Translations under genes and position numbers: made by a program
DNA from: a virus
Strand: one strand, 5' to 3'
IMG/VR virus record: IMGVR_UViG_3300025141_000089
Location: 1 to 61,539 of that record
Length of the DNA stretch: 61,539 nucleotides
Notes under the pieces: model-generated
Database searches by the model: none
What the model was told of the DNA's origin: nothing
Seen by the model: the letters and a program-made list of their open reading frames with translations, nothing else
In this document: piece by piece, positions 17,561 through 48,100 of the stretch
Numbering within the stretch: the first letter of the stretch is position 1
Layout of the letters: each line of letters opens with the position of its first letter

Positions 17561-18079
17561 CTATTCTTTGTTTTCTTCCTCTGGGTTTTCTGGCGGTTGT
17601 TCTTGTTTTCCTACGGCAACATCTAAATCGTGCATTACATCATAATCTATATTTTCGATGTAGTATTTTCGTGTTACTGGTTCTTCTGCTTCATCTGAAG
17701 TGCTTATTGTATAATTAGTAAATCCAGGCATTTGCAGAGGGCATGCGAGTTTAGGATAATCTAATTTTCCATATTCGTCTGCATTTGCAACCAAAAAGGT
17801 TTGTTTCCTATCACCACACCCACACCCACCACAAATATGTTTAGTAGGATCGGTAGTACTTTGATCTAAATATTCACAAGCCGGCAATTCCCCGCCAACA
17901 TTTTCATTGCCAAAACAACTTAATACCCTTAATTGTTTGATTGGTTTATTAATCTTATTGTTATTGATATTTCTTGATGCTAATGCAACAGCAAAACTTT
18001 GCACCATACTAAATGCTTTTTTAATTCCTCGTTGGTTTGGATCCAGCGGTGTTTTTCTAAATTTTGGTTTGTCTGTCAT
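17561..18079 (-). CDS. conserved protein with CGGCGCGD cysteine motif
   Basis: This 172-residue protein has a positively charged N-terminus (RKTPLDPNQRGIKKAF), a pattern of paired Cys (LSCFGNEN, PACEYLD, HICGGCGCGDR, LACPLQMPGF) and an acidic Pro/Glu-rich tail. The Cys spacing suggests a small metal-binding or disulfide-bonded unit around residues 53-120. I believe related genes occur in other marine T4-like phages, but know no function. It sits between gp13 and the cysteine-rich fibre locus, so a role in handling that locus is possible but unproven. Confidence 0.5.
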   Translation of the reverse strand: MTDKPKFRKTPLDPNQRGIKKAFSMVQSFAVALASRNINNNKINKPIKQLRVLSCFGNENVGGELPACEYLDQSTTDPTKHICGGCGCGDRKQTFLVANADEYGKLDYPKLACPLQMPGFTNYTISTSDEAEEPVTRKYYIENIDYDVMHDLDVAVGKQEQPPENPEEENKE

Positions 18080-18141: not shown

Positions 18142-19884
18142 TCATACAACTTTTAATAAAAGAGCCAGTCGTACATTATGTTCTTTGTCAAGTTCAGAAG
18201 CAGATACAACATCTGATGTCCACATGCTTGTGTTTAGTGATCCTATTTTGGTATTTTTTCTATTGTGTATATATGCAAGCGGTTTGGTGGGGGTTGTTCC
18301 CTCGACAAGTGTAGATGACCAATATGTTCCTTGCATTTCGTGAAATACGCCAGATGAACCCCTAGTAATATCAAGATTCTTAACATCAATCGAATCATAA
18401 GCATTCACATTAAATTCTTCACTCCATATCTCCCCATTATTTCTTTTTTGGGTTTTTGTCATCATAAATGCCAATAAGTTCTTACTTGGCACTACCAAGT
18501 TAAATCCTTTACCTATTCCGTTGATAGAAAAACCATTTCTAATTTGTTCAAACAAATTTAATGGTAATTTCATATTCCATGCACTATCCGCTTTTGATTT
18601 TTTTCTTTTATTAATTTTTAACTTGGCCATACTACCTTCGTGTAGGGAACTCAAACCATAATCAGATTCTAGAACAATAACCGCATATTGATTTTTAGCA
18701 AACGATCTAAAATCATTATGTTCTTCGTCTACAATTATAGATGATTGGACAATACCAGTTTTTGAATGTCCTAAAACTTCAACATCAGGATGAACTCCAC
18801 TTCCATTAAATATCCCAGCATATCTACCTGCAATTCTATATTCTCCTTCTTGCCAAGACTCTACAGTACTTCTAGAAATTGTTCCGTCCTTTAAAAAGGT
18901 TTTTATCATATCAATTTCTGATGTGTGGCCACAATTATATGGTGATCCATCTTGTCGCAATCCCATAAAATATCCATGACAAAATTCTATAGAAGATAAT
19001 TTACAACGGTATTCATTTCGATTAATATTTTCAACACATGCAGACACAATCCCCAACCCAGCCTGTTTCATTGTTTGATTATATCTTTTAATAAAATCTT
19101 CTTCAGGATTAGTTGCATTGTTTTGTATCAACAGATTATCAAACTTACTTTCTACGCCACTTCCACCCTGTGCTTCTGCGGTTTGATTGTTTGCATCGTT
19201 GCAATCCAGAATCTCTTCTGGATTAACAATATCATTACATGCCAATCCTCCTCCTTGATAATTGGCATAGATATTAGAATTGTCATTGCAATCATCACAC
19301 GATTCCGATGCCGAATCACAAACACATTCATCTAAATCTGCACATTGTTGTTCGCTGCACACATTTCTACAGTCATATATACCATTGCCCTGATACACAC
19401 AACAACTATTAGGATATCTAACATCCCACTTAGTGAGTACATCTTTTGCCGAAATTACTGTTTCTGGAACACCCGCGGCACCATTCGTACAAAAATTATA
19501 AACTTGTTCGAGCTCTGCAAATGCCGAACAATCTTCTGGTGACCATATCCCACCTATATCATTACATTGACATTGTGTTAGTTCTTTTAATCCTTCAAGA
19601 CTTGAAGGAATCCAAGTTTGTCTATCAATAGAGTTTAAATAAGCATCATGATTATCAAGATTACTACACGCACAACAACATCCCAGATCAGACAATGGTG
19701 GGCATTCAACATCTCCAACATTTTCTGCATATTGCCAATATCCATCATCTGCAATACAATCATAAAACGATACTAATTCATCCGACTGTGTTCCATCGGG
19801 TAAACAGCAGACACCGAATCCAGTAAATAAATCTTCTTTAATATCAACGGCAGTTCTTATTCTAGATCTAAATTGAATACTCAT
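18142..19884 (-). CDS. cysteine-rich virion protein with unique C-terminal domain
   Basis: This 580-residue protein opens with MSIQFRSRIRT and one recognisable GACC-type module (GVCCLPDGT), then about 200 residues rich in Cys, including CCCACS and CDDCND. From about residue 236 to the end the composition changes to an ordinary globular domain with few Cys. It includes YRIAGRYAGIFNGSG, GKGFNLVVPSKNLLAFMM and a C-terminal YWSSTLVEG...NVRLALLLKVV pattern faintly like the DUF1566/C-type-lectin fold. I infer a fibre tip or adhesin; no family is firmly recognised. It is the last gene of the cysteine-rich run. Confidence 0.5.
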   Translation of the reverse strand: MSIQFRSRIRTAVDIKEDLFTGFGVCCLPDGTQSDELVSFYDCIADDGYWQYAENVGDVECPPLSDLGCCCACSNLDNHDAYLNSIDRQTWIPSSLEGLKELTQCQCNDIGGIWSPEDCSAFAELEQVYNFCTNGAAGVPETVISAKDVLTKWDVRYPNSCCVYQGNGIYDCRNVCSEQQCADLDECVCDSASESCDDCNDNSNIYANYQGGGLACNDIVNPEEILDCNDANNQTAEAQGGSGVESKFDNLLIQNNATNPEEDFIKRYNQTMKQAGLGIVSACVENINRNEYRCKLSSIEFCHGYFMGLRQDGSPYNCGHTSEIDMIKTFLKDGTISRSTVESWQEGEYRIAGRYAGIFNGSGVHPDVEVLGHSKTGIVQSSIIVDEEHNDFRSFAKNQYAVIVLESDYGLSSLHEGSMAKLKINKRKKSKADSAWNMKLPLNLFEQIRNGFSINGIGKGFNLVVPSKNLLAFMMTKTQKRNNGEIWSEEFNVNAYDSIDVKNLDITRGSSGVFHEMQGTYWSSTLVEGTTPTKPLAYIHNRKNTKIGSLNTSMWTSDVVSASELDKEHNVRLALLLKVV

Positions 19885-19908
19885 GTTATATTATATATCC
19901 TTTTTTAT

Positions 19909-21564
19909 TTAAAACATACATTTTGGATAGGGGCAATTTGGAAATTTACAATCCATCCAAACACATTCGCCATCAGGTAATTGAACATTTGTGTATTCAT
20001 CTATTAAAATTTTTCTTGCCTCATCCTGCAAAATTTGTTGGACTTGTTGCCTATCCGGTTCTTCAAGGACACCCTCCGGCCGATCACATTCTTGGCACTC
20101 AGGACCGCACTGGCCGCAATTGCACGGGTAGCCAAGATCACAATCGGTCCCCGTACATTCAGGACAAGGGCCTACATCCATACCTTCATGACACTCAATT
20201 GGGCAAACATGCTGTTCCTTGATGCACGTTAAATAGTGATACTCATGCTGCGTGGCATCACACCAACCCACGTTCGACTCGCAACACGTGTTTGAAAGGG
20301 CCCAGGTAAGACACCAATGTAAACCACTGCGACACGCATGGCAGAGGATCGAGCTCCCAATGCACCCCATCACGTTTACCTGGCCTTCTATTGGCGGACA
20401 ATCGGGGCCGGGCAAGCAAGGTAAGCAATCTTCGGGATTCGAGAATATCTCCCAGCACGGAATTCCATCGCTATCGCGAGGATAAGCTCTACATTGATCC
20501 AAGCGGCCGCAATCAAAACGATCATACCCATCTTTAAATCCACTTGGACAGCAATCACCCCTACAAGTGCCGCGTATCCAATCCCCATCGCAATCACCTT
20601 CACCACAGCATTCCCTCCCATCTTTACAAGGACAGCAGGTTACAAAACGGGGGTTTACATCGCGAGGCACCCAGAACCAATCAGCGCAATCATAATCACC
20701 ACAAGACACACACATATCATCAGAACCTTCACAAACTCCTGGATAACATGTTTTTCGATAATGGAACGTACCTCCACGCTGATGACATGCATGCATATCT
20801 ACGACTTCGCAAGGCTCGTAATCAGGATGTTGCTGGCAACAAGCGCCTGGCGGGAATCTGCACGTCTCGCAATCTAAATTATTTATACCTACTGCAAAAC
20901 ATTCTGGAATCTCATTACCATCCTCATCAAAACAATTACATGTGTACACACCATCGCCTCGATCGTCCCAGTCATCACAAGTCGAATCTTCCCACGGGTA
21001 GTCCGTTACTCTACAACACTTATCATTATCACACCCCTCACCACCATCTTCAACACCACAATCACTAGAACCTAAATGAATTATCCCACCCAGGAGGCCA
21101 CAATTATCCCAAGGATCCCACTCATCAATATCACTAATCCACACACATTCTCCTGCTAAACAGCAAGATACATCAAATGTCGGTGTTGTGCATGTCTCAT
21201 CCCCGCAGGCTGTGGCACCCAAATAGCTCCCACCATCATCATTGCAGTGAGCCTCAGTCTTATAGCCACAGGTCATGTCTTGGTACGGACCTTCACAACA
21301 CGCACCATGTTGCATCGATGCATCGAAACAACCCAACGCACCATCTACATCAAACTCACATGCTGGGCAACATGCTGGGCAAGTTCCAATCTGATCGGCG
21401 CAAGTATATGAATTCCAGTATTCCTCGGTGCAATATCCGTCACCCTCTCCCGGCGTACAGGGCCATGGTGTACCACCAGCAACCGCACATTGACCATTGT
21501 CTAGGTTATCTAGACATGTGCCGTTAGGCAAACAGCAAGGGCCCTTTAAGCTTATATCACCCAT
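19909..21564 (-). CDS. cysteine-rich GACC-module protein (551 residues)
   Basis: The protein is built almost wholly of short Cys modules, for example GPCCLPNGTC, GACCEGPYQDMTC and GACCQQHPDYEPC. Each continues with a spaced C, a GG-x-aromatic turn and two further Cys. There is no collagen-like stalk. Its C-terminus, NVQLPDGECVWMDC...CPYPKC, is nearly the same as that of the gene at 21704-25336. The DNA in its middle part is visibly richer in G+C than its neighbours. No signal peptide is seen, as expected for a virion protein released by lysis. Function is inferred from the neighbouring fibre genes. Confidence 0.5.
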   Translation of the reverse strand: MGDISLKGPCCLPNGTCLDNLDNGQCAVAGGTPWPCTPGEGDGYCTEEYWNSYTCADQIGTCPACCPACEFDVDGALGCFDASMQHGACCEGPYQDMTCGYKTEAHCNDDGGSYLGATACGDETCTTPTFDVSCCLAGECVWISDIDEWDPWDNCGLLGGIIHLGSSDCGVEDGGEGCDNDKCCRVTDYPWEDSTCDDWDDRGDGVYTCNCFDEDGNEIPECFAVGINNLDCETCRFPPGACCQQHPDYEPCEVVDMHACHQRGGTFHYRKTCYPGVCEGSDDMCVSCGDYDCADWFWVPRDVNPRFVTCCPCKDGRECCGEGDCDGDWIRGTCRGDCCPSGFKDGYDRFDCGRLDQCRAYPRDSDGIPCWEIFSNPEDCLPCLPGPDCPPIEGQVNVMGCIGSSILCHACRSGLHWCLTWALSNTCCESNVGWCDATQHEYHYLTCIKEQHVCPIECHEGMDVGPCPECTGTDCDLGYPCNCGQCGPECQECDRPEGVLEEPDRQQVQQILQDEARKILIDEYTNVQLPDGECVWMDCKFPNCPYPKCMF

Positions 21565-21622
21565 TATATAATACTCCCATTAATCATTTGGTGAACAACA
21601 TGCAGTATATGGACCTTGCCAC
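21560..21622. repeat. 63-base duplicate of 25332-25394 (copy A)
   Basis: This segment and 25332-25394 are nearly the same over 63 bases, with a handful of mismatches. Each covers the end of one cysteine-module ORF (WQGPYTxCCSP), the intergenic GGGAGTATTATATA and the start ATGGG of the next gene. It marks a duplicated gene boundary. Confidence 0.85.
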
Positions 21623-21704
21623 CCAAACAGCAAGCGCCCACATTTGAGCCTCTACTTGACGATCTTTCTGTCTTATCGTCCTTAATTGTATATTTATCCT
21701 TCAT
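21564..21704 (-). pseudogene. remnant of a cysteine-module gene
   Basis: A 46-codon ORF fits exactly between two larger genes, sharing TAATG overlaps at both ends. In frame it reads a lysine-rich start and then SNVGACCLGG, the first part of a module. Directly after this the DNA continues in another frame with WQGPYTACCSPND and a stop, matching the end of the gene at 25352 (WQGPYTECCSPDV). The simplest reading is an internal deletion that joined the first half of one module to the last half of another out of frame. It may still be translated as a 46-residue peptide. Confidence 0.55.
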
Positions 21705-24700
21705 TATAAGTCCTCTCTACAAACAGGATATGGGCAATCTGCTCCAACACATTCCATCCAAACACATTCGCCACCAGGTAATTGAACATTTGTGTGGGTA
21801 TCACCAAGATTTGGTGGGGAGATTTCTCTATATGATGTTGTATTGCATTCAGGACCGTTCGAACAATCACAGCTGTGAGAAGGGTCCATCCACCCATAAC
21901 ATTCTGGAGGATCCGCATCACACGCGTCTCCACCTCCTTCAGGGGGACAACAACAACAACAATCACAAGGTTGGTCATTACCATCACCACAATCATTGCA
22001 AACAGACCCTGCGATGCTAAAAGTGCATTCTTTACAGCAGCAATCACAATCCTCTGTTGGACACGACCCACCACATTGCAGAGTACTCGAAGCACAAGGT
22101 TCGCAACTACAATCACCGCATTCTCCGTCAGCAGGACAATTTCCATCGTGACTATATCCAGTAACGGTGCGCCAGCACCCTCCAGCCTCACTCTCACAAT
22201 CGCCACCGGGATATACACATCCACCACCAATTAAACATGTACAACATATTATCGGACAACAAACATCATGGCACATCCCGCAATCGGCCACTATCGCTCC
22301 GCCACCTGCAATACATTCTTCTGGAGTTTTTACTACACATTCATGGGTGTCGGTTGTATTATCAGTTTCACATGGAGCATTGCCTATACCACCATTTGGT
22401 GCTGTGCAACAAAGAATCAGTTCAGGTGTGTTATCGCACGGATATGCACAATAAAAATCGTCTGCTGCTGGAGGTTCAGTAATCCCAGGACAACAATCCA
22501 ATGGCGGGGGACAAGGTGGGCCCAGACCACATCCTGGTGGTTGATTGGAACACGGGAAATTACAACTACCGTCTGGACAACATTCTCTCCCCGCTTGTGG
22601 ACAATAGCAACTATCACACGACTCCATGCAGATATTTTCTGGTTGGCAACAAGACAAGCCATCAGGGCATCCAGCACCACCCATACATCCAGGCATTCCT
22701 GAACAAACTACACAATCATCACCAGAAACAAATTGACAAATTTCCCCAGAACATTCTTCATGATAATAAAAATCACCCTCCAAACTTTCACAATTAAAAG
22801 AAGATTCTTCGCTACAAATTGGTATGTTTTCAAAGTACCGACAACAAGCGCCCCAGTTGTTCTCCGTACAACTATTATTTTCTTGACACGTTTCCTCTTC
22901 TGTCCAATCACCATTGATACCATCACACACAGATTGAGTAACTTCTAAGCACCCTGGCGAATATTCTATACAACAAGCACCAATCACATCATCTTGTTCG
23001 TAACATTCGACACAATCACCATTTAAATGAAAGGTCCCATCCTTAATACCACAATCATAATCTACAGTCATTAAGCAAATATCTTCATCTGTATTTTCAT
23101 CATAATAACAACAAGCACCAAGTACGCATGGATTATCTGAACAATATTTATTAGGTATTAATAAATCATCACCATCACAAAATAAAGCATCCATACAGTT
23201 TCCTGTGAACAATCCATCCACTCTTGAACAACATGCAAAAGCAATATCATCTCCACAATCATCACAGTTTATCATCCCTTGAGCAATACAATCTGGAATT
23301 ATATCTCCACCATCATCCAAACAATTACATGTATAATCAACCCAATCAGTACAAGTTACAACCCCACTAATCGATTTGCAACACTTATCATTATCACATA
23401 CAATCCCATCACAATCATCGACACCAGTATAATATACCCCACCGTTGTTACTACAGTTTGATTGAATATAAGGTGAATAGCATGTACCTCCCAAACAACA
23501 AGAACCATCTGTTGGGTTATCACATTCTATATCTAAACAATCTTGGCCACTATAGAAAAAGTCTAAAGCCTCCTGACAATCCCATTCATTGATGCCATCC
23601 ACACATGTGCCAGATCCCTGTAATAAATGACAACACGCTCCCGAAGCAGGACAAGGATTATCATCACAATTAGTTCCAAAATTTCCAAAGGTATATACAC
23701 CACCACTAATATCTGCACAATCTGGTAAAGTAGTCGTCTCACATATAGGAGTAGAATTGTTAGTATAACAACAAGATCCCATACAAATTTCACAACCGTC
23801 CGCGCCGCATCCACTGCAATCGCCATCCGTGGCACACGATGGGCATCCAACTTCCGGCCCTATTGGTGTTCCTCCAAACTTATGGCAATTCTCGAATGAT
23901 TGGCTCATACAATATTGCGGGTCTCCTTCAAAACAGCAAGCACCATCTTCACATGTAAATATATCCAAATCTTCTCCAGGTGTTCCACTGTATACATCAA
24001 CACACGTTTCTTCTGTGTCAACCATGAAGCAAGCGAAACAGTTATGCATTGTTCCGTTGGGGAGTTCTCCCGGATAACAACAAACAATTTCGCTGCCATC
24101 GTTACAATTGACAGCGCACGAAGAGTCCACTCCCTGCCAATTTCCACCAGCCGCGACACAATCGATGTCAATCATGTTTGGATAACACCAAGGATCCTGA
24201 TTCAAACAACACGCACCAGTTGGTTGCTGAAAACAGTCAGAGTCTTCCGATAATTCCGAACACATTACCAAGTCATGAAAAATTCCACTGTAGCCCTCTT
24301 CACACTCATCCATAATATAAGAATCTGTACCATCTAGACCATCTGCACAGTTCGGCCCGCTGCGAAGATAACTGCAACATGCACCTATATTGCATTGTTG
24401 GTCACACGGATCGCCTTCATAAAAACCATAACCAGTATCAGTATAATAATTACATTGAAATCTAAATATGTTGTCTGAACAGGTTGAATTAGAACCACAA
24501 CATGCACCTATATTGCATTGTGAGTCACAAACCGTATCATTACCCACATAAGTTCCACCATTGCTTCCGCAGTTATCCTCAGTCCTATAGTCACAATCAC
24601 CATTCGTATAACAACAAGCGCCACGTTCAACCGAGTCGCAATCGTTACAATTTGTGTCAATCCATGTACAGGCATTTGACGGCGCGCAATTATCTTCACA

Positions 24701-25336
24701 CTCATTTACGGTAACATTTTCAACACAACTATCATCGTTTCCCTCAGGGTCAATATAACAACAGTAACCCACATTTGAGCCAGGGCATTCATTGCATTCC
24801 GATTGACAAAAGCCAGTAGTATCGCAATCAAAATCAGGACAACACAACGATGTACCAGAAGGAGTACTACAACAATCCTCACCATGATGCCATACAGTTT
24901 CGTTGAACGTGTCATCACCCCTTGACCAACAATCTGCATAATTCATATCGTTTTCACAAAGGTCTACCCCATCTTGCCCACAAGGATTGCATGAATATCC
25001 TGAACACCACTGACAACAACAGGCACCAAGATATGCATCGTCAGTGCCGGTACACCTATCAACATCGCAAGTCGTATCGTTACCCCAATATAAACCTCCC
25101 GCGTTATTGCAATTGTCAGGTGTCATCTGCTCACAATCATGATCTTCTATGCAACACGCACCACCACTCCAACATGTAAAATCACATGCTTCGCAACCGT
25201 TGATAGTACTATCGCAATCATATGAATCATAGTCGTCCGCGTTGGGCCATGGTGTACCACTCCAACCATCCACACATTGGCCAATGGTGGATATATTAAC
25301 ACATGAACCCAAGCCTTGCCAACAACAAGCACCCAT
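21704..25336 (-). CDS. large cysteine-rich GACC-module protein (1210 residues)
   Basis: This protein is made almost entirely of tandem modules with the pattern G-A-C-C-x(3-7)-C-x(5-8)-C-x(3)-GG-x-[WYF]-x-G-x(4-6)-C-x(2-4)-C, so usually six Cys per unit. More than a dozen units are readable, such as GACCYTNGDC and GACCIEDHDC. The last 350 residues switch to denser clusters (CDCCCKEC, CDCCCCCP) and end with NVQLPGGECVWMEC...CPYPVC. There is no collagen stalk or transmembrane segment. I infer a disulfide-stapled extended rod or adhesive coat that associates with the collagen-stalk proteins encoded just upstream. Confidence 0.55.
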   Translation of the reverse strand: MGACCWQGLGSCVNISTIGQCVDGWSGTPWPNADDYDSYDCDSTINGCEACDFTCWSGGACCIEDHDCEQMTPDNCNNAGGLYWGNDTTCDVDRCTGTDDAYLGACCCQWCSGYSCNPCGQDGVDLCENDMNYADCWSRGDDTFNETVWHHGEDCCSTPSGTSLCCPDFDCDTTGFCQSECNECPGSNVGYCCYIDPEGNDDSCVENVTVNECEDNCAPSNACTWIDTNCNDCDSVERGACCYTNGDCDYRTEDNCGSNGGTYVGNDTVCDSQCNIGACCGSNSTCSDNIFRFQCNYYTDTGYGFYEGDPCDQQCNIGACCSYLRSGPNCADGLDGTDSYIMDECEEGYSGIFHDLVMCSELSEDSDCFQQPTGACCLNQDPWCYPNMIDIDCVAAGGNWQGVDSSCAVNCNDGSEIVCCYPGELPNGTMHNCFACFMVDTEETCVDVYSGTPGEDLDIFTCEDGACCFEGDPQYCMSQSFENCHKFGGTPIGPEVGCPSCATDGDCSGCGADGCEICMGSCCYTNNSTPICETTTLPDCADISGGVYTFGNFGTNCDDNPCPASGACCHLLQGSGTCVDGINEWDCQEALDFFYSGQDCLDIECDNPTDGSCCLGGTCYSPYIQSNCSNNGGVYYTGVDDCDGIVCDNDKCCKSISGVVTCTDWVDYTCNCLDDGGDIIPDCIAQGMINCDDCGDDIAFACCSRVDGLFTGNCMDALFCDGDDLLIPNKYCSDNPCVLGACCYYDENTDEDICLMTVDYDCGIKDGTFHLNGDCVECYEQDDVIGACCIEYSPGCLEVTQSVCDGINGDWTEEETCQENNSCTENNWGACCRYFENIPICSEESSFNCESLEGDFYYHEECSGEICQFVSGDDCVVCSGMPGCMGGAGCPDGLSCCQPENICMESCDSCYCPQAGRECCPDGSCNFPCSNQPPGCGLGPPCPPPLDCCPGITEPPAADDFYCAYPCDNTPELILCCTAPNGGIGNAPCETDNTTDTHECVVKTPEECIAGGGAIVADCGMCHDVCCPIICCTCLIGGGCVYPGGDCESEAGGCWRTVTGYSHDGNCPADGECGDCSCEPCASSTLQCGGSCPTEDCDCCCKECTFSIAGSVCNDCGDGNDQPCDCCCCCPPEGGGDACDADPPECYGWMDPSHSCDCSNGPECNTTSYREISPPNLGDTHTNVQLPGGECVWMECVGADCPYPVCREDL

Positions 25337-25394
25337 TATATAATACTCCCATTAAACATCTGGTGAACAACACTCAGTATATGGACCTTGCCAC
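25332..25394. repeat. 63-base duplicate of 21560-21622 (copy B)
   Basis: This is the second copy, here attached to the intact gene at 25352-27427. The match includes the ribosome binding region of the downstream gene, so unequal recombination between the two copies could delete or duplicate the whole 1210-residue gene between them. Confidence 0.85.
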
Positions 25395-27427
25395 GTGCCT
25401 GCCATCGAAAGGCACTCTGAAAATGTTTGGCCGTCTATACACCCACTCTCACCCATACAACAAGCACCCTGCACTTGATCACAAACACCATCATCACTAC
25501 ACACTTTCCCAACCCACCACACACTTGGATAAAGACAATCATTCTCATCCACACCATCATAGCATTCGGTCGTAATTGGATTGCAGCATGCACCAGTATT
25601 GGTGGCACAACAATCAACTGCGTACAATCCAGTACATTCCGTACCAGGACCCATGAATATACCCTTGCAATCTGGGCAAGTATCTTCATCCCTGAAATGA
25701 TCTTCACAGGCTGTTCTGGTTATATCATCTACACATACCTCCTGAGTGTCATCAGTAGCGCTACCTCCTAAACAACATGCACCAACATATACCGTTTTAT
25801 CACAACAATCTAGAGTTGTATCCACACAAGATGAGTTACTAACAGGGATACCACCATAAACATGTTGACACGCAGCTGCTGTTAGTGGCGGAAGATTTAC
25901 ATCATAGTCCCCAGCAGGAACTGTTCCAACAGAATCACCGATACAATTTCCGTCTTTACAACATGCAATCCCAACACCACAAGGATTTATACAAGGCCAT
26001 CCTGTCTCACCCGGCACATAATTATAACCATAATAGCTTAAATCCATATTACAAGTAATAGCCTTAGGACCATCTTCAATTAATTTCACCAATCCTGTTA
26101 TGTCATCAAGACGATAGTAAATATGAGTCCAATATGTTGCTCCAAAACTATTACATTCATCTGCTCCAGCATTTTCAATACAAACTGCGTGGTTTTGATA
26201 TTCTCCCCAATCACCACCTTCACTACAGCAAACTCCCGGTGCAAGTCCATCAGAACCACAACCATCACCACATGCCATAAATTGATTCCACGATCCTCCT
26301 AAAGTTGGTTCTCCATCTAAATCATATGGACTATAAAGTTGGCCACAATCATTTTCTGTCATATAATCAATACAGTTTATTTTACCACCCGGCCAATTAA
26401 GGTCATCCCGCGGTTCATCTATATCCAAATAACAACAAGAGCCTAAACCAACAGAACCAAAACATTCATCCACACCATATGCACGATTGGCAATATTTGC
26501 CTTCCATGTTTTTCCAGCATCGTTGGTTAATAAACTAATAATATCCCACCCACAAGAAAAATATAGTTCGTTTTCATCAAAATAAATATTTTCTGGCCAG
26601 TCCCATATGTCGTAACCACCTAGATGTATAGTAAAATTAAATACCTCATTGGAGGTAAAATCTCCAGTAAATCCTTGAATTCCTATTGGTGTTTCAATTC
26701 GGAATATACTTCCACGTTTTACATCCATCATCATTCCTGTGCCGCCACCACATGTTGGGCCGGTATACCATTCACTTGGCTCTCCACCAGTTATTCCATA
26801 AATTTTTGGCGTGACTCTATCCGATTCAAAAAGTGGCATTGAAGGAACTCGTATAACAATTTCTTCTGGATCATATGAGTAACCAGTAGCGCCACCAGTT
26901 TCAGAAAAATAAACTGTGCCAAGAGAATCAAAAGTTAATCCAGTAGAATCTGCTGATGCTCCGGCCGAAATATAAGAAAATCTATTTCTTATCATCCCAT
27001 CTGTTGTTGCGCCTTCTTTGTATATGATATCACCACTGATACCTACAACATCATCTGTTTGATATGATTTTAATGTTCCTTCTGCCGTTATTCCGCGGAA
27101 ATAAAATGTAATACCATCTGTTATATTTCTAAATATACTAACTGGGTTTGTTCCACCATCTCCAGTAATAGCACCAGCGGTCGCGACCTCTCCTGTTGGT
27201 CCTTTTAACCCTTCGATTGTAATTTCTTTTCCATCGGAAAGAACTAATATTAAATTATCATCTTCAGTTCTACCAGAAAATACAAAAGTACCAGTTGCAC
27301 CTGTAGGTCCAGTCGGACCTGTACCACCCGTACCTGCCGGTCCAGTAGGGCCAGTTAAACCACGAAGACCTTTTGGTCCCATCACGGATCCTGGTGGTAC
27401 TACTGAACTACTTCCAATTACTGGCAT
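25352..27427 (-). CDS. collagen-like / cysteine-module fibre protein (691 residues)
   Basis: Domain order: a short arm; Gly-X-Thr/Pro collagen-like repeats at about residues 18-48 (GPTGPAGTGGTGPTGPTGATG is the core); a beta-rich fibre domain to about residue 310 with the pattern WPENIYFDENELYFSCGWDII; then Cys modules to the end, finishing in GTWQGPYTECCSPDV. The fibre domain is shared with the collagen-like protein at 30288-33410. Collagen-like triplets in phage proteins usually form trimeric stalks, so a trimeric tail fibre is the likely form. The receptor is unknown. Confidence 0.6.
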   Translation of the reverse strand: MPVIGSSSVVPPGSVMGPKGLRGLTGPTGPAGTGGTGPTGPTGATGTFVFSGRTEDDNLILVLSDGKEITIEGLKGPTGEVATAGAITGDGGTNPVSIFRNITDGITFYFRGITAEGTLKSYQTDDVVGISGDIIYKEGATTDGMIRNRFSYISAGASADSTGLTFDSLGTVYFSETGGATGYSYDPEEIVIRVPSMPLFESDRVTPKIYGITGGEPSEWYTGPTCGGGTGMMMDVKRGSIFRIETPIGIQGFTGDFTSNEVFNFTIHLGGYDIWDWPENIYFDENELYFSCGWDIISLLTNDAGKTWKANIANRAYGVDECFGSVGLGSCCYLDIDEPRDDLNWPGGKINCIDYMTENDCGQLYSPYDLDGEPTLGGSWNQFMACGDGCGSDGLAPGVCCSEGGDWGEYQNHAVCIENAGADECNSFGATYWTHIYYRLDDITGLVKLIEDGPKAITCNMDLSYYGYNYVPGETGWPCINPCGVGIACCKDGNCIGDSVGTVPAGDYDVNLPPLTAAACQHVYGGIPVSNSSCVDTTLDCCDKTVYVGACCLGGSATDDTQEVCVDDITRTACEDHFRDEDTCPDCKGIFMGPGTECTGLYAVDCCATNTGACCNPITTECYDGVDENDCLYPSVWWVGKVCSDDGVCDQVQGACCMGESGCIDGQTFSECLSMAGTWQGPYTECCSPDV

Positions 27428-27441
27428 CTATTGTTCCTTTA

Positions 27442-30288
27442 TTATGCAAAGCACTTATCACAACCATTCACACAAACACAATTTCCACGGCTCTCACATT
27501 CAGAACACGGTACAGGCTCATCAAATTCTATACAACCAGAATCACAACAACAAGAGCAAACCATCCAAACTTGATTCGTAGAATTCTTATCATCTATGTA
27601 TGGTTGACAACCATGACTATTTGCTTTCCATGTTTCTTTAGTGCATATCGATTTATTTTTTGTTGGCAATGATTCAATTTTATGGGATACTGCCGAAGAT
27701 CCAACACACATCTCAGAATCAAAGTTATTAAAACACCTTTCATCTATATTTTTACAATCATTGACTATTCCACCATCCCCCAATGCACCTTCCCAACAAA
27801 CTCCAGGACAACAACAATTACAATCACCACTTCCAACTTCAATGGTCCATTGTTCGATATCATCTACTGGAGAAACTACATTACGGGGTTCTATACATTC
27901 GGATAAACTAAATTTACCAGAATATTGTTTTGCATCTGGAGCATCAACTTCTTTTCTGTATTCAGGAACAGAATATGTTTTTCTATCTTTTCCACTATTT
28001 CCTATAATTTTGTCTGGTTCTAAACTTGAAGACCTACTTGCCATGGTTTGAAAATATAAGTCGGCTACTTCTTGACTTCTTGATTGTCTTCCTGCTCCTG
28101 CTCCGCCAGCAAAATTCCACAAATCCCCCATTATATTATATTGTGAACAAACATCATTATTACAATCTCCATTTGCTACCCATATACCACCATTTCCAAA
28201 ACATTCCCCAAGATCCACACCAGGTTCACATCCCCAATCATAACAACAAGCGCCCCAGTTGCAGTTAATGTTTTCACATTGTTCACCTTGTGTCCAGAGG
28301 CCAAACATCCCAACACAATCTTCCCAAGTTTCCATTACACACTCATATGAATTCCCACCATCACCGACAGGCTTACAACATGCTGATTTTTGTTCATAAA
28401 CAGTTCCTGGATCACCCTTACAACATTCATGACAACTTCCATCCTGCAATATAACCGTACCACAACTGTTAGAATCTAAACAAGTATAATTATTTTGATT
28501 GGAGCCGGGGGCACAATAACAGTTCACATCCACACCACCCTCAGTACACAAACAATAACCCGAACCAGCATCGCATCCACCGCAATCTTCACTATCACAC
28601 GTTGGCATTTCTTGCGTCCAACCCGGACATCCAGTACATGGTGGTTCTGATGCACCAGAATGGCATTGATTATCAGAAAAAAGGCCTTTTGTTTCAAAAT
28701 CATGGGTTTCATCATTCCAAACCAAACAATTATAGGGTGCATAAGTTTGATCCACTACGGTTTCAGTTCCAGTAGTATTGTCCATTGGCACGGGGATTGC
28801 GTAATTTGCTCCAGCACATTTTGAACCAGCGCCCCAAAACATACCTTTAGAACCGCCCGCACCACCACTTGACCTTAATGTGTCACACACTTGAGCATTA
28901 CAATTAAAACACACTTCATCAACACAACAAGCACCCATCTCTTGTATACAACAATTAACATCTTCACATCCAGTATATGGAGGAATTTCGCCCCCCATCC
29001 ACTTACTATTCATTGACAGCGAACACTCAACAACACCCAATAGTACACATTCTCCATTCAAACAACAAGCGCCGCGATCCCCACACGCTGCGGGACAACC
29101 GCCCCACACTGACAAATCATCACAAGTAGTTAAACTAGCACCTGAATTGATAGGAATAAAAAATCCACCATAAACATTACACTTATGCTGTGTAGTTTCT
29201 ATGCAATTTCCGTTCACACAACACATTCCCTCATAATGACAATCCGTTCCTTCTGAACGATTTATACACGCAGTACTACCAGAGAACCACCCATCAATTT
29301 TATCACAATATTTTTTACTTACATAATCTAAACAACCCCTATAACCTGGACCTGTTATTCCATCTTGTTCACCAGTTCCTTTCCTACAATAACAACAAGA
29401 ACCCACAATAATTGGTTCTGGAATTAATGGACTATTAAATGTTATTCCTGGAAATTTATAAACACCCGCATTATGAGAACCACCATCATCATCAACATAT
29501 ATGCCACTATACATGGCAGTTAAACCCGCAGTAGAGTTATCTCCGAAATTTTCTTTATCTGTTATGCTACTAAAGGAAACAGATGTTCCATCAGGAGTAT
29601 TGATTCCAATCGTTCCTACGTGGCCTGGTGTTACACCCCATGATGTAAAGTTATTACTTGTTGATCCTTCACTGCCAGTTATCACAAATCTTTCTCTGTG
29701 TGTTAATATTCTAGCGGTTAATTGATCACCACTCCAAAATGTATTTGTTGCCGCATTAGCAGATAAGCCAGATATACTATTATTAATAAAAATTAATTCT
29801 CCAGTATTTCCAAGTATTCCATAATCGTGTGTAAGGCCTCTAATAAGAATAGTATCACTTTCTGGAGTTATTATACTAATATCATTTCCACTAACTGTTA
29901 AATTTCGGAAAGTTGCTGTACGGCCCTCTATAGATTTAAATACTTCTCCATAATAACCGGCATTTATAATAGAATATGATGTAGTAGGAAGATCTCCTGT
30001 CGAACCCCGAATACCTGTAACACCTAGAGTTGTTCCTTGATTAAGAAGAAATCCAGTCGTATCTCCTTCATATCCTCTAAGGCAAAATATAAGTTCATAT
30101 GTGATTCCTTCACCACTACTTCCAGATATACCTGCAATACCATATCCTGTAAATCCTATCGGACCTACTTGACCAGTCGTTCCTGTCAATCCCCCTGGCC
30201 CAGTGTTACCAGTAGCACCAGCAGGGCCAGTTATATAACCGACTCCTGATGGATTTGCTATTCTACTACTTCCTTGTATTGATGCCAT
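27442..30288 (-). CDS. collagen-like / cysteine-module fibre protein (948 residues)
   Basis: The N-terminus MASIQGSSRIANPSG leads into Gly-X-Thr/Pro repeats at about residues 20-50, then a beta-rich shaft to about 290. Cys modules follow, among them GSCCYCRKG, GMCCVNGNC and GACCLNGEC. A low-Cys interruption near residue 750 (QTMASRSSSLEPDKIIGNSGKDRKTYSV) is followed by a last Cys block with CCCP and CSCCCDSGC and the ending GNCVCVNGCDKCFA. Its stop and the next gene's... order is coupled: its ATG overlaps the stop of the gene at 30288-33410 by one base (TAATG). Confidence 0.6.
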   Translation of the reverse strand: MASIQGSSRIANPSGVGYITGPAGATGNTGPGGLTGTTGQVGPIGFTGYGIAGISGSSGEGITYELIFCLRGYEGDTTGFLLNQGTTLGVTGIRGSTGDLPTTSYSIINAGYYGEVFKSIEGRTATFRNLTVSGNDISIITPESDTILIRGLTHDYGILGNTGELIFINNSISGLSANAATNTFWSGDQLTARILTHRERFVITGSEGSTSNNFTSWGVTPGHVGTIGINTPDGTSVSFSSITDKENFGDNSTAGLTAMYSGIYVDDDGGSHNAGVYKFPGITFNSPLIPEPIIVGSCCYCRKGTGEQDGITGPGYRGCLDYVSKKYCDKIDGWFSGSTACINRSEGTDCHYEGMCCVNGNCIETTQHKCNVYGGFFIPINSGASLTTCDDLSVWGGCPAACGDRGACCLNGECVLLGVVECSLSMNSKWMGGEIPPYTGCEDVNCCIQEMGACCVDEVCFNCNAQVCDTLRSSGGAGGSKGMFWGAGSKCAGANYAIPVPMDNTTGTETVVDQTYAPYNCLVWNDETHDFETKGLFSDNQCHSGASEPPCTGCPGWTQEMPTCDSEDCGGCDAGSGYCLCTEGGVDVNCYCAPGSNQNNYTCLDSNSCGTVILQDGSCHECCKGDPGTVYEQKSACCKPVGDGGNSYECVMETWEDCVGMFGLWTQGEQCENINCNWGACCYDWGCEPGVDLGECFGNGGIWVANGDCNNDVCSQYNIMGDLWNFAGGAGAGRQSRSQEVADLYFQTMASRSSSLEPDKIIGNSGKDRKTYSVPEYRKEVDAPDAKQYSGKFSLSECIEPRNVVSPVDDIEQWTIEVGSGDCNCCCPGVCWEGALGDGGIVNDCKNIDERCFNNFDSEMCVGSSAVSHKIESLPTKNKSICTKETWKANSHGCQPYIDDKNSTNQVWMVCSCCCDSGCIEFDEPVPCSECESRGNCVCVNGCDKCFA

Positions 30289-33200
30289 TAGTACCTCTGG
30301 TTAATTCCTTTATCTTCATCTCGAATAATATTTGGAAGTTTCCATAACTTATAATTACTATCGTCACTGCTTGGATATCTACCATCACATCTCACTAAAC
30401 GTATAGGTCTTACTTTATATGTATTTACTGTTCTGTTCTTTTTGCCTACTAGGAAATTATCAGAATTTCCACTTTGATTTATTTTTATTGCCCATGCTAA
30501 ACTTCCAGGATCTGCGGTTACTCCAAGAGGACCAGTCGCGCCGACAGGATTAATAATTCCTTCTCCTATTCCAGCAGTTAATCCTTTTGTTTCATCATAT
30601 GCACCAGTAGAAGTCCAATGCCAACCATTTAATGGCGTTCCACCCGCTTCAAGAAGGTTAGAATTTAAATTAAATTCATTATCAACAGTTCTAATGCAAC
30701 TATTTGCAATATATGAAAACTCATCATGACTTGGTAAATACCAACCAGAGATATTAGGTGAATTAGAACCTGTTATTCCCAAAGATATTAAATTATCATC
30801 ATATAATCTTACTGCACGAACCGCAGAAACATATCCGCTTGTTAATCCAGGACCAAAATCCGAACCTGTATATGTTCCATCATCATCATAATAGCCTTTA
30901 AGTAGTGCATTATCCGCACTAATAATTCTGATTGTATTATATAATCCCCAGTTTCTGTGCCACATACCATGTGCAGTTTGTGTCGGTTTAGTTTTTAATT
31001 TACTTATTGCATCACTTCCGTATATCCTAGATGCATTACATGAGCTGAATGTTCTTTCTGGAAGGATGGTTAATGAAACTTTACCCCTATTTTGGTCATA
31101 CCAATACCCTTCGGATTTAGGAAATACTTCATATTTATATTCATTGCTTACATCTTCATATATTCCAAGATTTTGGTTATATAAAGGTCCCCACGAACTA
31201 CCACGATTTCCCCAATAAAATTCATTTGTAATGCCATCCACATTATTATATTCTACAACTCTATCACCAGTTATTCCTATAGGATTTAATGAAATAATTA
31301 CATAATATGCATCATTTTTGTTGGTGTGTTTATTACAAGACGATTTAGAGTCAAATCCATAACTGTGCCAATCATATTTGGATTTATATTTAGATGGCAC
31401 ATTACCAATATTATCATAAGTAGATCCAAATCCGCCCCTCATCAAAGACTCCCATGAAGAAAGTTTAGAACCACCAAATCCCCTTGCTCCTATTCCAACC
31501 TCACCATCAGGATGATATAATCCAACAACCATACCACCCGCATATAAATCGCCAGGTTGTAAATCTAATCCTGTAACTTCTGGAATGCATCCAGAAGTGG
31601 TTGAATTTTCTCTGCAATCAATATCCCTACAATGTGAACCATGCCCTGCATAAAGATATCCATCTTCTATACAAGAAGAACCAAGTGTGTTATTATCACA
31701 AATGGCGCCACCTTTGCAACATGCACCAGTACCACCCGAACAAATTTGAACATCATCTTTATTAACACACGGAATACCAATTCCCATAAAGAATTTCTTT
31801 TGTCTTAAACAATTGGTTTTAGATATTTGTTCACAATGTCCTATACCATCACAGCATGCCCCTATTTCATTTTTTAAATTTTCGCACTGCATTTCTTCAC
31901 ACGAATTTGCCGTTCCGCCAAAGAGAGTGTGATAGTTTAATACATCGGCCAAATCTACACATTCATTAGCAGACATATTTTCATAACACACAACTTCTTT
32001 CGATTTTATATTTCTTACACAACATGGTCCGAGTTCATAGCAAGAACTTCCCGTTCCACCTGCACCACATAATGTGCCTGTACCATTATAATAACCAGGG
32101 CAATTAGCTTCTGTTGTATGAACACATATTCCTTTCCCCATACAACATGCACCAGTGCCTCCATCACCAAAATAGTAATTTCTGCCATCTTTATATCCCT
32201 CAAAAGGAAATGTACCATCATCGTCATAGCAATAATATGCATTATCAATATTACCTGTTCCGCCAGTTATACCATACCATTGGACCATATTTCCGTGCCA
32301 TGCATACTCGTTCGGACACCATGTTTCATCATATTCGCAAGGCAACCAAAAAAAGTTTATAATATCAGTTCCACCACTCCAACATGGAGGTTTGTTTAAG
32401 GGCCATATAATATTTTTTTCTGTTTGACTGTTGGTGTACCATGGCGGGAATTCTCCACTAGTGGTAGCACCATGAACAACCAAACTAAATGCTTTTGCTA
32501 ATTCTGCATCACTAACACCATTACCAACAGGGCCATTTCCTGTATATCCAAAACTTGCACCCTTAAAATTTAATGAAACTTCTCCTGTATATCCAGTAAC
32601 ACCAGAAATACCATCTATTTGCCTCATATTAAGTACGAAAACTTTAGCATTGTTTGGGTCGATAGGCACAGATGGTGCATATAATGGCACATCCACACCA
32701 GTTTCTCTAATATCATAATCAGCACCAATTTTGAGATATTTTGCCTTTTCTGTAAAGTTTGTAACTCTAACATCAATAGCATTTGCTCCACTTGGAAGCC
32801 CCGAACTTGTCGCCATGTCGTATTTTGCACCACTAATTCCTGCAAGGTTCGACCCAGAAAGGCCCACCAATTGCCCCGCGGCACTATCGGTATCAGTTCC
32901 ATCAATATTTAAGTATCCAAAATTTCCTGGATCATATATGATGTTAATTGTATCTAAACTTTCGTTTTGTTGTAAAGATAATGCGGGGCCAGTAACCTCA
33001 ATCACTTTTAATACAAGTGAACTTATATTATTATCAGAATCTCTTCCTTGTACAAGTGTGACGCCCATACGAGAAGAGTCATTAATATTTTGTCCATCAA
33101 TTAGTGGATACCCACCACCTGTTGGCCCTTTAATTCTTGTTGTTGTGGTGTAACTACTAGTCCAACGGGTCTCGTTTTCATCTACCAATTCAAATATTGT

Positions 33201-33410
33201 ATGAAGTTTATCGCCCGCAATGGTAGCATTACCATCGGCATCAACAAGATACATGTTGGTGATATTACCACCACTAAATCCCGTTGCACCTGTGTATCCA
33301 TATCCTATTGGACCTGTAGCACCTGTGCCGCCAGAAGCACCGGTCGGGCCAGTAACATGTGTTGCTCCGATTGGTGTAAAGTGACTGCTTCCGTGTACTA
33401 TTGCTACCAT
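30288..33410 (-). CDS. collagen-like fibre protein with four Cys modules and a DUF1566-like tip
   Basis: This 1040-residue protein has the clearest architecture. Residues 1-20 are a short arm sharing a GSS motif with its two paralogues; 18-48 are collagen-like; about 50-400 are a beta-rich shaft; four six-Cys modules lie at about 419-457, 461-509, 517-557 and 562-599. From about 620 a large C-terminal domain includes SGWYLPSHDEFSYIANSC, WHWTSTGAYDE, AWAIKINQSGN and YKVRPIRLVR. These are hallmarks of the DUF1566/Lcl C-terminal (C-type-lectin-like) fold often used for ligand binding. It is a good candidate for the receptor-binding fibre. Confidence 0.65.
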   Translation of the reverse strand: MVAIVHGSSHFTPIGATHVTGPTGASGGTGATGPIGYGYTGATGFSGGNITNMYLVDADGNATIAGDKLHTIFELVDENETRWTSSYTTTTRIKGPTGGGYPLIDGQNINDSSRMGVTLVQGRDSDNNISSLVLKVIEVTGPALSLQQNESLDTINIIYDPGNFGYLNIDGTDTDSAAGQLVGLSGSNLAGISGAKYDMATSSGLPSGANAIDVRVTNFTEKAKYLKIGADYDIRETGVDVPLYAPSVPIDPNNAKVFVLNMRQIDGISGVTGYTGEVSLNFKGASFGYTGNGPVGNGVSDAELAKAFSLVVHGATTSGEFPPWYTNSQTEKNIIWPLNKPPCWSGGTDIINFFWLPCEYDETWCPNEYAWHGNMVQWYGITGGTGNIDNAYYCYDDDGTFPFEGYKDGRNYYFGDGGTGACCMGKGICVHTTEANCPGYYNGTGTLCGAGGTGSSCYELGPCCVRNIKSKEVVCYENMSANECVDLADVLNYHTLFGGTANSCEEMQCENLKNEIGACCDGIGHCEQISKTNCLRQKKFFMGIGIPCVNKDDVQICSGGTGACCKGGAICDNNTLGSSCIEDGYLYAGHGSHCRDIDCRENSTTSGCIPEVTGLDLQPGDLYAGGMVVGLYHPDGEVGIGARGFGGSKLSSWESLMRGGFGSTYDNIGNVPSKYKSKYDWHSYGFDSKSSCNKHTNKNDAYYVIISLNPIGITGDRVVEYNNVDGITNEFYWGNRGSSWGPLYNQNLGIYEDVSNEYKYEVFPKSEGYWYDQNRGKVSLTILPERTFSSCNASRIYGSDAISKLKTKPTQTAHGMWHRNWGLYNTIRIISADNALLKGYYDDDGTYTGSDFGPGLTSGYVSAVRAVRLYDDNLISLGITGSNSPNISGWYLPSHDEFSYIANSCIRTVDNEFNLNSNLLEAGGTPLNGWHWTSTGAYDETKGLTAGIGEGIINPVGATGPLGVTADPGSLAWAIKINQSGNSDNFLVGKKNRTVNTYKVRPIRLVRCDGRYPSSDDSNYKLWKLPNIIRDEDKGINQRY

Positions 33411-33423
33411 AATAATATACTAC

Positions 33424-44699: not shown

Positions 44700-45173
44700 C
44701 TATAATGAATCGTTGTATATTATGTTAAATTTAACTTGATATCTCTTACGGGATTTTTGTGTGATAATTTTATCATAAGAATGTCCTGTCTTATTTTTAA
44801 ATCTATTTGCTATTATTGTGAATATCTGTTCTTTGGCAAATTTGTTTTGATTCTTTTTTTCATTCTTTTTATATTTAGTGGAATCTAAAACAAAAGACAT
44901 GTTAGACGGACTATATGTTTCAATGTATTCTAATACATCTTCAAATATGCCTTTCATCATCGTCATAGCCGTTCCAACAGACTCGTTTCCTGTTCTGTTT
45001 TGACGATAATTATTATAGAAATCTATAACAACATCATCTGTTTTTTTACATTTAACTATTAAGAGTGTAGTATATAACCCATATGTTTTTGGATGATTTC
45101 TATTATATATTACTAAAAAATTATTTTCCGTATCTGAAACCATAACTTTTCTTTCGGGTATTATGGTGTGCAT
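44700..45173 (-). CDS. hypothetical protein between hub genes
   Basis: This 157-residue alpha/beta protein has a basic C-terminus and no family that I recognise. It has no cysteine enrichment, unlike its neighbours (a single Cys, in IVKCKKTDD). Readable elements are NFLVIYNRNHPKTYGLYTTLLIV at the N-terminus and KSRKRYQVKFNIIYND at the end. An internal ATG at 45143 is an alternative start. The start at 45173 overlaps the stop of the giant cysteine-rich gene by 13 bases, implying coupling. A chaperone or structural role would be speculation. Confidence 0.55.
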   Translation of the reverse strand: MHTIIPERKVMVSDTENNFLVIYNRNHPKTYGLYTTLLIVKCKKTDDVVIDFYNNYRQNRTGNESVGTAMTMMKGIFEDVLEYIETYSPSNMSFVLDSTKYKKNEKKNQNKFAKEQIFTIIANRFKNKTGHSYDKIITQKSRKRYQVKFNIIYNDSL

Positions 45174-48100
45174 GCGCTACAATCTTCATCTTCTTTCCAA
45201 CACATATCACCAGAGACATCATCTGATTGCATACAACATTCATATTCATACATTTTTCCTAAACAATCACATCCATCTTCTACATCTGTACAGTCCATGC
45301 ACTTCATTAGTCCAGTTGCATTATCGGGACTACAACACAATCCAGAGGGACAGTCCCAATTTTCAATACACTCTATATCACATTCTTCGCAAACTTTCTC
45401 TTCTCCAACATAACCATTGCAACATAATCCATGTTCCCAACAATCTTCATCTGTTTCGCATAATATTCCTTCAACACATTGTTCGCCTATACAAACCATA
45501 CCATCTTCGCAATCCTCATGAGTTTCACAAAGAGAATCACACTCAACACATTCTTCGTATAAACAGCACATCTCTGGACAAGATTCTTCGCCCTCGCAAT
45601 CATTATCACAATCATCATCTACTTCACAATACAAATCCTTAATTTTACATACACCAACATCAGTGCAAATCATACCTTCTGGACACTCACTATCTGATTC
45701 ACATTCACAGGGTCCACATCCCCCACAAAAATCAGGACAAGGTCCACATTCACCATCAGGTTGAAGACACATACCAGCCGCCCAATGTCCGAAATCACCA
45801 TATCCATGGTCGTCTAGGTATGGATAATTGCCGTAAAACCCTGCTGTTGGTCCATTAGAATAACAAGGATCATATTTTTTAAGGATATCACAATCATCAC
45901 AAGGCATTATAGGAACAGGATTGATTTCCTTACATATACTACCATTCAAATCTGGTAAATTGTTATCTAGCCATGCATACGGTCCAGTAGTCCCATCGAG
46001 GTTATTCATTTCATAATGATCACAAGAACCATCTACCTCGCAATCGGGAGAAAATATCCAAGTTTCTGAGGGAAAACCTGGGCAAGTTTCACCGGCCGGA
46101 ATACATTTTCCATCCCTATAGCAACATTTTTCATCATCGAATATCCCTTCATCACCTGTCGCGCATATATTTCCAAACATATTGGCACACCAAGCAACAG
46201 GCGCTTCTTCTGCAATTTCACCGACATCAAACCGTTCATATGTTAAATATGATGCGGGAAGACATTCTTCATTTACTGCACACCCACCGCCATCGCATTG
46301 TGATCTTTCATCCACATCTCCATACCATTTTGGATAACAAGTATGATCAAAACATGTTCCCGTATCTTGACATAAATCTACACCAAGATGTTCTGCCTTA
46401 GCATACTGACATTCACAACTAAGGCAAGCATCATGGCTTGGATTATAACTGTGGTGATCTGTATCTATACACAATTCGTCACAGGTTGGCACATGCCATT
46501 CATCGCAAACCCATCTTGTACACCAATTTGGGCAACAAGTTTGGTCATCTCCATCCGCTGGATTCTGACAACAACTAGGGAAGCATTCCGGCTCACCATA
46601 TGGAACTCCACTATCATTGCACGGACATTCGTACGGCGGATCCGGCGACGTGTTGACTACCCATGAATCACATGTGACAATATTATCATATTCTTGTAGA
46701 TACCAAAGATTGAGAAACGGTTTTTCGCCTTCACATTTCCAACAGCAATCATATATATTATCTTTATCCGTACAACCCCCGCGGCAGTCTGTCACTCCAA
46801 CGCAATCATCTCCACCACAATTAAATGTATCACAATCCAAATAAAGGTAGTTATTGCATGAGTAATGATATTTGGGATCATTAAAAGGTGGGCACGGATA
46901 ACCATTGTCAGCAGGCTTCCATATTCCATTATCACATATACCATTTTCTAACCGATCTGTGAATACAGCCGTAGGAAAGCAATTACATCTACAATCATGA
47001 CTCAAGCCAGCTGGACAATCATCCACACAATGCGACACATCATATGGAATTTCCCGCCAATCACAATCAGGGTTCACATCCTTCACAAACAAATATTCTT
47101 CATCATACATTGTAGTGTTTGGTTTAATCACTGAACCAGTATGCATTCCAGATGCATAACATTCACCTAGACAATCGGTACACACATTAGGAAATATTTT
47201 AATTGCCGCCATATGTTCGTTGTCTCCACATCCATCTCCCCCATCCGTCCTATCCCCTGTACAACACTCACCCGCTAGTCGTTCTTCTCTGGTGCAGTTG
47301 CCAGGGTTTCTTTCCCATATGATATTCCCACAACATTTATCATATTGCTCACAGTCATCACACCCCCCACATTTACCATTTTCACCGCAACATTCCAAAC
47401 CATCTATATAACAATCTGGTTGGCATTCACAATCTTGCCCTATCGGAACACACTCCCAATTATCTTTGCAACATTTTTCTCCTTCTACGCATACATTGCC
47501 ATTACTCGCGCACCAATCAAGGTCAGTCGCCTCAGGCTGATTACAACCCACGGCACGTTGACATTTACGAATACCAAATTCATTTTCTCGACACGATGGA
47601 GCATCCGTTTCAAAAAGTTCGTTCAACTTTTTCCTCACACAATCACCATCGTGATTGCATTCATGACATTTTCTATTTTCAGCATAATCCATGCAAGGAG
47701 AACCTTCTGGAATTTCATCGCACCATAATCCTTCATAGAAATATGTTATTTGCTTATCGTGTGTGCCCCCTTTTCGTGTATCTGGCATCCTTGGCCAATT
47801 ATTCTCTTCGTTGAAATAATACTCCCACGACACTATAGACAATTCTTCACAGTCTGCTTGTGACATTATCCTACATGTTCTCATGCTATTACAATAATTA
47901 ATTGACGAATTATGATCACCATCCTCACATTCGAGTATTTCATCACCATGGCCAGGATATTGATTTTTGACATGGCAACATGCACCAAGAGGAGTACTAC
48001 ATGCACCTCCGCAGGTGAACGAATAATTTTCCCATTCATTTTCGCATGGACCTGAACCCCAACCATCACACGGATTTGGATTTGCAACGTTTTCAAGGCA

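Follow-up and report, generated by a model that had tools for sequence, protein, structure and literature searches.

Six consecutive minus-strand ORFs occupying positions 18142-33410 of the window (the entire 61.5-kb IMG/VR virus record, 61,539 nucleotides, apparently a fragment of a T4-like phage) encode proteins that share a repeated six-cysteine unit, and it is fairly probable that they form an accessory cassette of disulfide-hardened fibres or adhesins, located at the tail baseplate in a lineage of T4-like, probably marine phages. The initial annotation had proposed a modular system of fibres or an adhesive coat in these genes. Synteny, collagen stems, a candidate Lcl_C-like domain and the pairwise loss of cysteines are consistent with that proposal, which was nevertheless too broad, the module also being bacterial; its six genes were retained here, while a seventh cysteine-rich protein (45161-53398) lies outside the locus as first delimited and had been missed.

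Neither the module nor such fibres seem to have been described before. The initial annotation knew of no phage system of this form and our literature search found none: the open-licence literature contained no description of Cys-rich or collagen/Cys phage fibres, nor of Cys repeats in planctomycetes. New here are the pairing of cysteines within the module, its distribution in bacteria, the second Cys-rich block and a relative that naturally lacks both blocks. These data make it testable how a lytic phage builds a large disulfide-rich appendage, name a small, apparently undescribed disulfide module common to planctomycetes and diverse viruses, and provide a clue to the host of a T4-like lineage that is widespread and uncultured.

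Phage identity and position of the cassette

PHROG matches (138, 213, 2, 23, 460, 211, 219, 261 and 232) identified T4-like MCP, scaffold, portal, sheath, large terminase, neck and baseplate wedge genes in the window. They are arranged in T4-like order and constitute a T4-like myovirus structural cluster. The portal shared ~50 % identity with its counterparts in marine cyanophages and Pelagibacter phages, and the lineage is probably marine. The cassette lies between the baseplate genes and the neck genes. Its place corresponds to that of T4 genes 9-12 and wac, which account for the baseplate periphery, short tail fibres and whiskers and likewise separate the baseplate wedge genes from the neck. 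Searches of cultured phages (tblastn, six Cys-protein or module queries) returned nothing credible, some matches being possibly hidden by low-complexity filtering; function was therefore assigned from position and domains.

Composition of the cassette

Features are listed in Table 1 and genes are designated below by their first coordinate.

Table 1. Coordinates of the cassette genes, the second Cys block and neighbouring features in the window
Feature	Position	Strand	Remarks
172-aa neck neighbour, six conserved Cys (CGGCGCGD)	17561..18079	-	kept beside neck genes
580-aa 'MSIQ-RSRI' family protein, 27 Cys	18142..19884	-	one clear GxCC unit near N-terminus
551-aa Cys protein, 78 Cys	19909..21564	-	3-4 canonical units
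1210-aa module array, 192 Cys	21704..25336	-	~13-15 canonical units, strongest array of the cassette
691-aa protein	25352..27427	-	GSSS N-terminus, short collagen-like run, middle region, C-terminal Cys units
948-aa protein	27442..30288	-	GSS N-terminus, collagen-like run, Cys units and other Cys-rich parts
1040-aa fibre	30288..33410	-	GSS N-terminus, collagen-like run, four Cys units, candidate C-terminal Lcl_C/DUF1566-like domain
Two tandem Cys units of the 30288 protein, 83 aa	31614..31862	-	segment used for structure prediction; HMM coordinates
Two Cys-poor fibre-region proteins, 446 and 789 aa	33424..37146	-	flank the cassette
2745-aa protein of the second Cys block, 296 Cys	45161..53398	-	in baseplate gene cluster; mostly non-canonical Cys spacing

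The unit is 37 residues long with the consensus GACC-x5-C-x7-C-x3-GG-x-aromatic-C-x4-C. Its HMM gave 26 matches across the whole window (best E 7e-13) and matched all six cassette proteins, in agreement with the earlier observation of six consecutive large genes carrying the repeat. Cysteine made up 4.7, 14.2, 15.9, 6.4, 8.2 and 3.2 % of the six ORFs, in order, and 0.84 % of the other ORFs of the window (n = 27); seven proteins of this one phage fragment together contained ~750 Cys, many of which belong to fixed, conserved units. Composition-preserving shuffles yielded 0-0.13 units per protein versus up to 13 observed, which rules out a chance origin of the module.

No model of Pfam, NCBIfam or PHROG covered the GACC unit and the module array matched no PDB sequence, so that the module is apparently an undescribed family. 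Where a single protein matched an unrelated Pfam model, the match was judged to be due to chance.

The description of the proteins as dominated by modules held for 21704 and in part for 19909, and failed for 18142 and 30288, whose sequences consist mainly of something other than Cys units. Apart from 21704 and 19909, the cassette proteins each carry 1-6 units together with other domains, and several of the six are multi-domain fibres rather than module arrays. Collagen-like stalks, which had been reported for three proteins, were found in 25352, 27442 and 30288 as short unbroken Gly-X-Y runs of 18-30 residues; the PHROG tail-fibre matches, as in 25352, cover the collagen part only. The four units of 30288 are located at residues 420-599. 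Gene 18142 is the conserved last cassette gene before the neck genes and has homologues in ~47 viral ORFs. The C-termini of 19909 and 21704 share a TNVQLPxGECVWMxC...CPYPxC motif, which is also present in a few relatives.

Second block and flanking genes

Protein 45161 has the highest number of cysteines of all seven, homologues of 1100-2600 aa in relatives, and no Pfam match. Runs of a second motif, C-x4-(D/E)C-x4-C(C), unlike the GACC unit, were observed at residues 1169-1290 and 2566-2700; this motif matched the protein 10 times versus 2.2 times in shuffles.

On the neck side, the 17561 protein had no Pfam, PHROG or cultured-phage match, and its candidacy as a dedicated partner of the cassette was rejected, the gene also occurring in phages without cassette. 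On the other side, the 789-aa flanking protein matched PHROG tail-fibre families.

Distribution and divergence among relatives

An IMG/VR search with the neighbouring neck gene recovered 59 loci, most of which, when extending far enough upstream, displayed Cys-rich ORFs in the cassette position; the cassette was found at the same site in dozens of IMG/VR contigs. Five longer records had the same gene order, and in four out of five the baseplate region encodes a large Cys-rich protein. Families 18142, 25352, 27442 and 30288 comprised 42-54 homologous ORFs each, some of which are overlapping copies of one contig. One relative (G008/L053) was otherwise collinear, with the flanking genes in order, and lacked both Cys blocks: its homologue of 34777 abuts that of 17561, and its homologue of 53414 abuts that of 43803. 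Canonical GACC modules were also observed in viral contigs of higher GC content (0.52-0.65; L099, L104, L106, L114, L121-L123 and L129).

Compared with its close relative G002, the window showed mostly 87-97 % identity in head and neck genes versus 60 to 90 % in cassette genes, 30288 being the most conserved member (90 %) and 19909 being replaced in G002 by a different Cys-module gene of 708 aa. Between the two phages, 183 out of 192 Cys (95 %) were kept in 21704 versus 58 % of the other residues, and 276 out of 296 Cys (93 %) in 45161 versus 61 % of the others. At the level of sequence, this divergence pattern is that of fibre genes; the disulfide scaffold appears fixed while surface residues seem to change rapidly, which would be expected of adhesive surfaces exposed to shifting host pressure.

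Proposed function

We infer a location on the virion and a role in adhesion for the cassette proteins. Three of the six would be anchored by the short GSS N-terminus and a collagen-like triple helix; the fibres would be lengthened by beads of the 37-residue module, each locked by three disulfides (Cys1-4, 2-6 and 3-5), and would end in binding domains, the best candidate for contact with the host being the Lcl_C-like domain of 30288. Conservation was high in the C-terminal region of this protein. Pfam Lcl_C (PF07603) matched seven of 16 homologues, weakly (best E 7.6e-5), the window protein itself being unmatched, and a structural model of this region was of low confidence (pLDDT 61.5) and had no PDB match. 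The succession of collagen, modules and Lcl_C would resemble that of a receptor-binding fibre, as judged by domain order. No stem or tip was recognised in 21704, 19909 and 45161, and these proteins might have another role.

The cassette could instead decorate the outer baseplate or tail chiefly for physical stability (protease resistance), host binding being left to other fibres such as 34777. This would suit the very high conservation of Cys amid otherwise loose sequence, as well as the retention of a 34777 homologue by phages without cassette; it is rendered doubtful by the resemblance of the Lcl_C-like tip to receptor-contact proteins and by the replacement of 19909 between close relatives, which is also a habit of such proteins. 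Quite unlikely is a soluble adhesive or protective matrix, released at lysis or coating the cell, of which the proteins would be components without being virion parts. Two proteins are indeed almost purely Cys-rich and devoid of a recognised anchor or tip, and related modules occur in secreted bacterial proteins; against this, the window proteins lack signal-peptide-like N-termini, their genes are embedded and conserved in the neck/baseplate block, and three of them have collagen N-termini like those of phage fibres.

Disulfide bonds or metal

The initial annotation had raised the question of whether the six cysteines pair or bind metal. AlphaFold2 produced a confident model of two tandem units (pLDDT 95.6, pTM 0.82), which had no similar fold in the PDB or among viral predictions, short folds being hard to match. 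Cysteine losses were analysed across 898 phage and bacterial units. Losses of Cys1 and Cys4 always coincided (3/3, p 8e-9), Cys3 was lost with Cys5 six times (p 3.5e-9) and Cys2 with Cys6 in 5/6 cases (p 2e-4, the scoring of Cys6 being confounded by end effects); these p values ignore relatedness and are indicative only, related units not being independent. One unit in the 30288 orthologue of G001 (L071) had both Cys2 and Cys6 replaced. Because cysteines vanish in pairs 1+4, 2+6 and 3+5, three disulfides are favoured over metal, and the module is probably disulfide-bonded with the pairing 1-4, 2-6 and 3-5, as read from the sequences.

Very unlikely, then, are reduced, metal-bound fibres or regulators with a zinc-ribbon-like or Fe-S site in each unit: phage proteins are synthesised in a reducing cytoplasm and zinc could be bound by the CxxCxC pattern of the neighbouring 17561, but specific pairs disappear while the other four cysteines stay, unlike a shared cluster, the unit has no conserved His partners, and bacterial ORFs that start with signal-peptide-like sequence contain this module as well.

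Cysteine is normally scarce in phage structural proteins because their folding takes place in the reducing cytoplasm. The six window proteins had no obvious signal-peptide-like N-termini, from which we infer that they would be made reduced in the cytoplasm and oxidised at or after lysis. DsbA was absent from 20 related records (positive controls worked), and weak matches to thioredoxin and glutaredoxin were found in G001. This 123-kb relative (L068-L074) also contains a minus-strand ORF (32761-34251, 497 aa) in which a CGWC thioredoxin-like domain is joined, by eye, to glutamine-synthetase-like sequence. Its only tRNA gene is a tRNA-Cys(GCA) on the minus strand (L073:13549-13622; G001:C1:113549-113622). 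A tRNA-Cys was absent from all other module-bearing contigs with typed tRNAs and was rejected as a rule for module-bearing phages.

The module in bacteria and the possible host

The initial annotation had called for a profile search of phage and bacterial proteins. The searches run here placed the module in secreted proteins of Planctomycetota and in other viral contigs, and not in cultured phages. When 84,980 species genomes were scanned for the DNA pattern, the matches listed were mostly from Planctomycetota, largely Phycisphaerae, and bacterial module proteins often began with a signal-peptide-like sequence. In even samples, the module was detected in five out of 118 other Planctomycetota genomes, in none of 119 from the phylum of a Streptomyces hit and in none of 117 others from the phylum of a Bacteroidetes hit. 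Phage and bacterial profiles aligned over all 37 positions (E 2e-18). One Phycisphaerae protein (L200:4721-7975) combines a DNRLRE domain, GACC modules and a multicopper oxidase.

The module is not phage-specific and, outside viruses, was seen mainly in secreted proteins of Planctomycetota. Its occurrence there makes an exchange with bacteria probable, possibly with the host; a transfer from the host is plausible but unproven. A T4-like portal was absent from the 12 bacterial genomes reached via module hits and from 248 Phycisphaerae genomes, so that a planctomycete host remains a guess. We offer as a tentative and rather improbable scenario that these phages infect marine planctomycetes of the Phycisphaerae type and use a disulfide module acquired from surface proteins of the host both to armour and to aim their baseplate fibres, the disulfides closing only after the virion has left the cell. 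If true, this would define a class of phage fibres that mature by extracellular oxidation and may bind the host matrix like-to-like.

Comparison with known systems

By its place between baseplate wedge and neck genes, the cassette resembles genes 9-12 and wac of T4 and probably has a role in fibres or at the baseplate periphery. No sequence relation to these genes was detectable in the searches run, and the T4 proteins are not known to have Cys modules or GSS-collagen stems. Gly-X-Y stems at N-termini are shared with collagen-like phage tail fibres (PHROG 5073, 819 and 1806), from which the cassette differs in that the matches span only the collagen part and leave the Cys module uncovered.

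The GACC-repeat secreted proteins of Planctomycetota, including Phycisphaerae, share with the phage module the length of 37 residues, all six cysteines and GGxY. Unlike the phage proteins, they often have a signal-peptide-like start and carry their modules beside other domains, and no phage collagen stems were seen in them.

Lcl of Legionella is a trimeric, lollipop-shaped adhesin in which a collagen stem is followed by a DUF1566-containing domain and which binds sulphated glycosaminoglycans (PMC11162425); its C-terminal domain has no disulfides (PMC11162425). Diversity-generating retroelements also commonly target DUF1566 (PMC6642488). The 30288 family likewise displays a collagen-like stem and then a putative Lcl_C-type C-terminal domain, with the differences that its Lcl_C match is weak, that four Cys units are inserted between stem and tip, and that it is encoded by a phage, within a T4-like structural cluster.
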